Assembly: GCF_007827795.1 (NCBI RefSeq)
Contig: NZ_VITI01000005.1
Location: 62,001 to 126,000, forward strand
DNA: 64,000 nucleotides
Reading direction: 5' to 3'
Source: Azospirillum brasilense
Lineage (GTDB): Bacteria; Pseudomonadota; Alphaproteobacteria; Azospirillales; Azospirillaceae
The notes under the pieces are model-generated. The model saw nothing but the letters and a program-made list of their open reading frames with translations. It did not search any database and was not told where the DNA came from. Positions 24,913 to 27,671 of the stretch are shown here, piece by piece. A program made the translations under genes and the position numbers. Position 1 is the first letter of the stretch; each line of letters begins with the position of its first letter.

Positions 24913-24940
24913 TTGACAGATTTCCGGCTTTTTCTATAGT
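24913..24940 (+). promoter_or_regulatory. Strong sigma-70 promoter of the alpha ribosomal operon
   Basis: TTGACA (24913-24918), 16-bp spacer, TATAGT (24935-24940), in an AT-richer patch. Predicted start is near 24947, giving a leader of about 150 nt before GTG 25099. In many alphaproteobacteria rpsM follows secY-adk; here pyk is upstream and divergent, so this promoter must drive the operon. Confidence 0.85.
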
Positions 24941-25482: not shown

Positions 25483-25881
25483 ATGGCCAAGCCCTCAGCC
25501 GCTTCGCAGCGCCTTCGCCGTCGCGAGCGCAAGAACATCACCGCCGGCGTCGCTCACGTGAACGCCTCCTTCAACAACACGATGATCACCATCACCGACG
25601 CGCAGGGCAACACCATCGCCTGGTCGTCGTCGGGCACGATGGGCTTCAAGGGCTCGCGCAAGTCGACCCCCTACGCCGCCCAGGTCGCCGCCGAGGACGC
25701 GGGCCGCAAGGCCCAGGAGCACGGCATGAAGACCCTCGAGGTCGAGGTGAAGGGTCCGGGTTCGGGGCGTGAGTCGGCGCTGCGCGCCCTGCAGTCGATC
25801 GGCTTCCAGATCACTTCGATCCGTGACGTCACGCCGATCCCGCACAACGGCGTCCGTCCGCCGAAGAAGCGTCGCGTCTAA
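25483..25881 (+). CDS. rpsK: Small ribosomal subunit protein uS11
   Basis: 132 residues with the normal uS11 fold: an N-terminal basic tail, [61 protein letters not shown] and [18 protein letters not shown] at the C-terminus. It binds 16S rRNA on the platform of the 30S subunit. GAGGACGCACGGACC precedes the ATG. The 131-bp spacer after it is unusually long for this operon and holds a large stem-loop. Confidence 0.99.
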
Positions 25882-25901
25882 GAAGCATCGCTACTCCGCA
25901 C

Positions 25902-25978
25902 CCGCGGGGACCCGCCGTTCCGGGACAGGCGCCGCAGCCATCGCGGCGCCATCGGATGGGAACGGCCGGTCCCCGCGG
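25902..25978 (+). promoter_or_regulatory. Large three-tier stem-loop between rpsK and rpoA
   Basis: Perfect 11-bp outer arms (CCGCGGGGACC 25902-25912 with 25968-25978), one C-C mismatch, perfect 8-bp middle arms (GCCGTTCC 25914-25921 with GGAACGGC 25959-25966), an internal loop, then perfect 8-bp inner arms (GGCGCCGC 25928-25935 with GCGGCGCC 25943-25950) around a 7-nt loop. There is no U-tract, so it is not a simple terminator. It ends 34 nt before the rpoA GTG. A processing site, attenuator or translational control element is plausible. Confidence 0.75.
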
Positions 25979-26012
25979 ACGTGTGTCCATCCCGATGGCA
26001 TGAGGTAATACC

Positions 26013-27032
26013 GTGGCTCTTCAGAAGAACTGGCAGGAACTGATCAAGCCGAACAAGCTGGACATCCAGCCCGGTGACGACGCCGACCGCACGGCGACCG
26101 TCGTGGCCGAGCCGCTGGAGCGTGGCTTCGGTCTGACGCTCGGCAACGCGCTGCGCCGCGTGCTGCTCTCCTCGCTGCAGGGTGCGGCCGTCACGGCGAT
26201 CCACATCGACGGCGTGCTGCACGAGTTCTCGTCGATCCCCGGCGTGCGCGAGGACGTGACCGACATCGTCCTCAACATCAAGTCGATGGGTCTGCGCATG
26301 GGCGGTGACGGCCCGAAGCGCATGCGCCTGCGCGCCGAAGGCCCCGGCGAGGTGAAGGCCGGCATGATCGAGACCGGCGCGGACATCCAGGTGATGGACC
26401 CGGACCTCGTGATCTGCACGCTGGACAACGGCGCCCGCCTGAACATGGAACTGACGGTCGAGACCGGCAAGGGCTACGTCCCGGCCAGCCAGAACCGTCC
26501 GGAAGACGCCCCGATCGGCCTGATCCCGGTCGACGCGCTGTTCTCGCCGGTCCGCAAGATCTCCTACAAGGTCGACAACGCCCGCGTCGGGCAGGTCACC
26601 GACTATGACCGCCTTTCGATGGTCGTCGAGACCAACGGCGCCGTGAAGCCGGACGACGCGGTGGCCCTCGCCGCCCGCATCCTCCAGGACCAGCTTCAGC
26701 TGTTCATCAACTTCGAGGAGCCGACCCACGCGGTCGCCGAGGAGAAGCACGAGGAGGTTCCGTTCAACAAGAACCTGCTCCGCAAGGTGGACGAGCTGGA
26801 ACTGTCGGTCCGTTCGGCCAACTGCCTCAAGAACGACAACATCGTCTACATCGGCGATCTGGTGCAGAAGACCGAGGCGGAGATGCTCCGCACCCCGAAC
26901 TTCGGCCGCAAGTCGCTGAACGAGATCAAGGAAGTGCTGGCCCAGATGGGTCTGCACCTCGGTATGGAAATCCCGAACTGGCCGCCCGAGAACATCGAAG
27001 AGCTGGCCAAGCGTCTGGAAGAGCCGTACTAA
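26013..27032 (+). CDS. rpoA: DNA-directed RNA polymerase subunit alpha
   Basis: 339 residues. The N-terminal domain for dimerisation and assembly is seen in [40 protein letters not shown]. The flexible linker near residue 240 leads to a C-terminal domain with [43 protein letters not shown], which contacts UP elements and activators. The GTG start at 26013 gives [16 protein letters not shown], typical of alphaproteobacteria, with GAGGT upstream. It is separated from rplQ by 216 bp containing a palindromic repeat. Confidence 0.99.
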
Positions 27033-27049
27033 GTCTCGCAGGTTCCATT

Positions 27050-27135
27050 GCCCCCTCCCTGACCCTCCCCCGCTTCGCAGGGGAGGGGATAATCTCCCTC
27101 CCTTGCCGAAGGCGGGGGAGGGCCGGGGTGGGGGC
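27050..27135. repeat. Intergenic palindromic repeat, copy B
   Basis: Imperfect inverted repeat of about 24-bp arms (27050-27073 with 27111-27135), with an inner hairpin CCCTCCCC (27063-27070)/GGGGAGGG around CGCTTCGCA. The core GCTTCGCAGGGGAGGG differs by one base from copy A at 708-723. It sits inside the alpha operon between rpoA and rplQ, so it must be tolerated within, or process, an essential transcript. Confidence 0.75.
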
Positions 27136-27248
27136 AAATGTTCCCAGGGCCACCAACCGGCCCGCCCCGCGCCGTACCAGCCGAAAACTGGGCGGTCGGG
27201 TTCACCACCGGCTCCCCGAGGGGGGCCACGCCATGAAGGAGGACCGTC

Positions 27249-27671
27249 ATGCGTCACGGCGTTTCCGGACGTAAGTTCAGCAAGACCACCAGCCACCGCA
27301 AGGCCATGTTCTCGAACATGGCGAACGCCCTGATCAAGCACGAGCAGATCAAGACCACCCTGCCGAAGGCCAAGGATCTGCGCCCGATCGTCGAGCGTCT
27401 GATCACGCTCGGCAAGAAGGGTGGCCTCGCCAACCGCCGTCTCGCCTTCGCGCAGCTGCGCGACGACGCGATGGTGACCAAGCTGTTCACCGTTCTGGCC
27501 GACCGCTACAAGGACCGCCAGGGTGGCTACAGCCGCGTCCTGAAGGCCGGCTTCCGCTACGGCGACGCCGCCGCCATGGGCGTGATTGAGCTGGTCGACC
27601 GCGACGCCGCCGCCAAGGGCCAGGATTCCGGCCCGGTGGAGATCAAGGACGAGGTCGAGGCCGAGGGCTGA
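27249..27671 (+). CDS. rplQ: Large ribosomal subunit protein bL17
   Basis: 140 residues. The conserved N-terminus [20 protein letters not shown] is followed by [36 protein letters not shown], and the core ends at the IELVDRD strand. A C-terminal tail of about 20 residues is acidic ([10 protein letters not shown]), an alphaproteobacterial style extension. AAGGAGGACC gives a strong ribosome site. It is the last gene of the alpha operon, followed by a 13-bp stem-loop at 27752-27783. Confidence 0.99.

Follow-up and report, generated by a model that had tools for sequence, protein, structure and literature searches.

The window analysed here is a stretch of 64,000 nucleotides from Azospirillum brasilense. 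On its + strand, the genes rpsM, rpsK, rpoA and rplQ follow one another, with a spacer of 131 nt between rpsK and rpoA and one of 216 nt between rpoA and rplQ (Table 1). These four genes seem to form a separate operon here. Upstream of rpsM, and divergent from pyk, lies a strong sigma-70-like promoter (TTGACA-16-TATAGT, 24913-24940, 11 of 12 matches). The rpoA-rplQ spacer carries a G+C-rich palindrome at 27048-27137, which is a dispersed REP-like element found in at least about 40 places of the genome with 75-94% identity. It is inserted 5' of a structured rplQ leader (about 27155-27248), which Azospirillum conserves and which can be recognised in other Rhodospirillales. No Rfam family scores on this leader when 25800-27300 is searched at E-values up to 10, and it is probably the L17 r-leader that Eckert and Weinberg predicted (PMC7247131).

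Table 1. Genes and RNA features around the rpsK-rpoA spacer, in window coordinates
Feature	Position	Strand	Basis
rpsK (ribosomal protein S11), upstream cistron	25483-25881	+	ORF and translation; tblastn anchor for relatives
Three-tier hairpin P1-P2-P3 (11, 8 and 8 bp) in the rpsK-rpoA spacer	25902-25978	+	folding, inverted repeat, compensatory changes
P1, 11 bp	25902-25912/25968-25978	+	sequence
P2, 8 bp	25914-25921/25959-25966	+	sequence
Internal loop, 5' strand GGGACA	25922-25927	+	nearly invariant in the family alignment; mostly kept in the Inquilinus order
P3, 8 bp	25928-25935/25943-25950	+	sequence
Apical loop AGCCAUC, 7 nt	25936-25942	+	sequence
Apical-loop pseudoknot strand GCCAUC	25937-25942	+	in 68 distinct family spacers; in the Inquilinus order, swapped jointly with the partner strand
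Internal loop, 3' strand; here AUCGGAUG, in relatives usually AGCAUG	25951-25958	+	alignment
Pre-SD pseudoknot strand GAUGGC	25994-25999	+	loop complement in every motif-bearing family spacer; swap and shuffle controls
rpoA Shine-Dalgarno (SD) GAGGT, 6 nt 5' of GTG	26002-26006	+	sequence
rpoA (RNA polymerase alpha), GTG start, presumed controlled cistron	26013-27032	+	ORF; orthologues in relatives

The rpsK-rpoA spacer is dominated by a large hairpin. The three stems that a first-pass annotation had described for this spacer are exact in their lengths, and they are separated by a single mismatch between P1 and P2 (C25913.C25967) and one internal loop. Its placement of the hairpin end 34 nt 5' of the rpoA GTG is likewise correct, and the absence of a U-tract, which it also claimed, was confirmed by the sequence itself and by a terminator scan. 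The + strand of the spacer showed neither a promoter-like nor a terminator-like site. In an inverted-repeat search, the 20-nt arms of the hairpin showed 95% complementarity. Folding of 25880-26020 resulted in a minimum free energy of -78.3 kcal/mol, compared to -59.5 ± 4.2 kcal/mol for dinucleotide shuffles (z -4.52), and none of 200 shuffles was as stable as the native sequence, which agrees with the earlier claim of a structure beyond chance.

The conservation of the hairpin was examined in spacers of relatives, which were located via rpsK and rpoA (tblastn with rpsK as anchor) and then extracted. All Azospirillum spacers fetched carry the same hairpin at the same position, with differing arm sequences. 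In the genome of Azospirillum cavernae (L039), P1 reads CCGCAGGAAU/AUUCCUGCGG compared to CCGCGGGGACC/GGUCCCCGCGG. RNAalifold on 40 aligned sequences returned 21 pairs, 18 of which are compensated on both sides. When pairs were counted over the structure named in Table 1, including the pseudoknot described below, 93.9% of the cells were paired, whereas sliding the partners reduced this to 36-48%. Changes on both sides were observed at 22 of the 32 pairs, in 135 cells. The covariation score was 0.335, compared to 0.137 for column shuffles and 0.05-0.12 for a slid partner. Since G-U cells outnumber A-C cells in the alignment (31 versus 15), the mRNA strand is favoured as the functional strand. 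The first-pass annotation had proposed a functional RNA structure in this operon spacer and named covariation among related spacers as its check; compensatory changes in the relatives are indeed abundant, both by RNAalifold and by pair counts.

Azospirillum was sampled with 45 genomes, and a covariance model gave an rpoA-linked match in every one of them; among the 12 other genera belonging to the family Azospirillaceae, 9 had such a match as well. Across these genera and the Inquilinus order, the element always lies in the rpsK-rpoA spacer. The conserved, compensated structure and the consistent place 5' of the same gene are what characterises a structured cis-regulatory element. In the family genera g27, g31 and g32, inspection of the spacers and the covariance model both indicated that the element is absent, apparently by loss. 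Their motif-free rpsK-rpoA spacers (loci L065-L069, L071 and L072) measure 141-326 nt, and RpoA of g27 is nearer to that of Azospirillum than is RpoA of some genera that keep the motif. Because three genera of the family do without it, the element must be dispensable. Among 385 alphaproteobacterial genomes scanned with the covariance model, strong matches occurred in the family only, with marginal ones elsewhere whose positions were not individually checked. In the other Rhodospirillales spacers examined, no descriptor match had convincing loop/SD pairing. Failure to find the element elsewhere should be given less weight than it seems to deserve, since the model misses the homologues of the Inquilinus order, which were first spotted by eye. 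Some spacers hold further structures. In some genera (loci L059-L064, L076, L079-L082, L085 and L090-L092), the main hairpin is followed by an inserted stable hairpin of variable sequence ahead of the pre-SD strand, and the loop/SD complementarity is retained in these genomes. In another group of Rhodospirillales (L169, L181 and L185), a common small hairpin, GAGCGAUUGRAUGGCUGC..., lies shortly 5' of the rpoA SD and is possibly an independent element.

A second feature of the spacer, which the first-pass annotation missed, is a pairing between the apical loop and the bases ahead of the SD. In this genome, the loop sequence GCCATCG forms a perfect 7-nt complement to CGATGGC (25993-25999) directly 5' of the SD, and the GAUGGC strand ends 2 nt from the SD. 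The same 7-nt match was found in a close relative. All motif-bearing Azospirillaceae spacers (68 distinct ones) combine the loop GCCAUC with GAUGGC directly 5' of the SD, and GAUGGC ends 9-17 nt ahead of the start codon. Because both strands are invariant within the family, the pairing is indistinguishable there from two independently conserved words. Several spacers of the Inquilinus order keep the succession of P2, GGGACA internal loop and P3 with different loops, and their pre-SD bases are altered accordingly; several others show no such structure. The loop/pre-SD sets of this order are UGCCAC/GUGGCA, CUGCCAC/GUGGCAG, GCCAC/GUGGC, UCGCCA/UGGCGA, CGCCAA/UUGGCG, GCCAA/UUGGC, CCACGG/UCGUGG and UCGCC/GGCGA. 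Where the loop has GCCA, the next base is U, C or A, paired with A, G or U, respectively.

Controls for this pairing were made by swapping mates and by shuffling. Swapping mates among eight types gave 40,320 permutations, of which 146 reached the total pairing observed. Shuffling the 16 nt 5' of the SD gave P values of 0.001-0.13 for single types, which combined to about 1e-11 for all types and about 1e-5 for the types outside the Azospirillaceae; in these statistics, sequences within one order are not independent, and some of the Inquilinus-order hairpins were picked by a descriptor scan, the best match of which was then tested. The pairing strand ends 0-6 nt 5' of the SD core (AGG) in all types examined. 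The covariation comes from a handful of types in one other order, and some of the pairings comprise only 4-5 bp. As in other pseudoknots proximal to the SD, the loop pairs beside the SD, and it does so with covariation. At the level of sequence, this supports a pseudoknot between the apical loop and the pre-SD bases.

The comparison of these genomes, as a comparison of sequences, shows a hairpin, its internal loop, the loop/pre-SD pairing, the place beside the SD and the attachment of a single-copy element to rpoA. On this anatomy, it seems likely that the spacer is a cis-acting mRNA element that controls the initiation of rpoA translation. The three-tier hairpin would present its apical loop to the roughly 6 nt directly 5' of the rpoA SD, and pairing of the loop would form a pseudoknot that abuts the landing site of the 30S subunit. 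With the pseudoknot formed, or held by a ligand, the 30S subunit would be blocked or trapped and less alpha would be synthesised. With the pseudoknot open, rpoA would be translated. In E. coli, stabilised pseudoknots of the S4 (PMC10931766) and S15 systems repress or trap initiation. A stabilised pseudoknot should do so here because the paired strand occupies the site for the upstream mRNA, and control may run in the direction of repression rather than activation. Since rplQ has a conserved leader of its own, the simplest target would be rpoA alone, so that the level of alpha could be adjusted separately from S13 and S11, which are encoded on the same mRNA.

Candidate ligands are proteins encoded in the operon, such as S13, S11 and alpha, or a different RNA-binding protein. 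It is rather doubtful that alpha, or an assembly intermediate containing alpha, is what binds the pseudoknot and represses its own translation. If true, an RNA polymerase subunit would directly and autogenously control its own synthesis on a ribosomal-protein mRNA, apart from the r-protein cistrons. Predicted folds were examined for 12 genomes; in 9 of them, the linker from the foot of the stem to the pre-SD strand measures only 1-12 nt, and the 5' strand of the stem is at least 37 nt long. With so short a linker and so long a stem, contact of the loop with the SD should require a bend in the stem or at least a partial opening of P1. On this geometric argument, the GGGACA/AGCAUG internal loop is probably a hinge or a protein site.

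A ligand might also be dispensed with altogether. Most predicted folds leave the SD itself unpaired, and no ligand site was recognised in the element: a scan with the core motif found, at motif level, no convincing mimic in the 16S and 23S rRNA of E. coli or in the 23S rRNA of the own genome (E. coli rRNA stood in for the 16S gene, for which the draft genome gave no match). These observations would suit a constitutive architecture that keeps the rpoA start open or poised, or insulates it from rpsK translation, with a fixed output. We consider this unlikely, as the size of the element and its conserved internal loop exceed the needs of an insulator. The length and great stability of this intercistronic hairpin, in a spacer that has neither terminator nor promoter, would also be in keeping with an RNase III (or RNase E-flanking) site. 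Cleavage there would split the rpsM-rpsK mRNA from that of rpoA-rplQ and protect the 3' end of rpsK, and the ratio of the cistrons would follow from different half-lives. Such a site, however, requires no covariation of the apical loop and no constant location beside the rpoA SD, and the stems are interrupted by the conserved internal loop; we regard processing as quite unlikely to account for the element.

Attenuation had been suggested by the first-pass annotation as well. A stable G+C-rich hairpin between two cistrons could in principle act as a transcription attenuator or pause site inside the operon, but no U-run follows the stem as it would in an intrinsic terminator, the + strand of the spacer offers no terminator-like site, and the loop pairs at the SD and not at a terminator. 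The suggestion is unsupported, and we judge it very improbable. That a dispersed REP-like palindrome came to lie in the spacer by chance, as one does in the next spacer, has next to no probability and was rejected, since the DNA search and the covariance model agree that the own genome has a single significant copy and the hairpin keeps the same site across genera. A second match of the model in the own genome (G000:C2:249286-249401) is weak, lies apparently in a coding region and was taken as chance. Of the three mechanisms originally named for the hairpin (RNase processing, attenuation and binding of a ribosomal protein), the one that best suits the anatomy, as far as sequence can tell, is translational control by a bound protein.

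Translational control by a pseudoknot at the ribosome-binding site has parallels in E. coli. In the rpsO leader (S15), a hairpin-loop pseudoknot beside the SD is thought to keep the 30S subunit on the folded mRNA. The Azospirillum element shares this SD-adjacent hairpin-loop pseudoknot, whereas the gene and the protein differ and the hairpin is much larger, with three tiers and a conserved internal loop. The leader of the E. coli alpha operon (S4, RF00140 Alpha_RBS) is likewise an mRNA pseudoknot at a ribosome-binding site, and it belongs to the same r-protein/rpoA operon, but it precedes rpsM and not rpoA. Alpha_RBS had no match in the window at gathering score, nor in 25800-27300 at E-values up to 10. 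The resemblance to the S4 and S15 pseudoknots is one of logic, and we claim relatedness for neither. In the alpha operon of E. coli, repression by S4 reaches the r-protein cistrons and not rpoA, alpha being regulated independently, and in alphaproteobacteria rpsD (S4) lies outside this operon, elsewhere in the genome (PMC10931766). Structured S4 r-leaders have also been predicted in Bacteroidia, Flavobacteria, Clostridia and Fusobacteriales, for operons that include rpoA (PMC7247131). These precede rpsD or rpsM in other phyla, whereas the Azospirillum element precedes rpoA. The L17 r-leader, predicted 5' of rplQ in Actino- and Proteobacteria (PMC7247131), belongs to the same operon and the adjoining spacer, where it is probably the structure at about 27155-27240, and by inspection alone this structure differs from the rpoA element in sequence and shape.

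No Rfam family scored at gathering score anywhere in the window, and the relaxed matches in 25800-27300 fell on the neighbouring palindrome or inside rpoA, none of them over the spacer. The leader table of PMC7247131 lists none before rpoA in Alphaproteobacteria, and the main text of the sRNA catalogue of A. brasilense Sp245 (PMC7685610) mentions neither rpoA nor rpsK. No report of the element was found in the literature searched, which left most subscription papers and supplementary files outside. Because there is no Rfam match and no report was found, the element would represent a new structural class among the mRNA leaders of operons for the translation and transcription machinery, and it is probably an undescribed switch for the amount of the alpha subunit. 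The reason for the regulatory diversity of the alpha operon has been called an open question (PMC10931766). With an element of this kind at the rpoA start, the balance between alpha and the ribosomal proteins becomes directly testable in Azospirillum.
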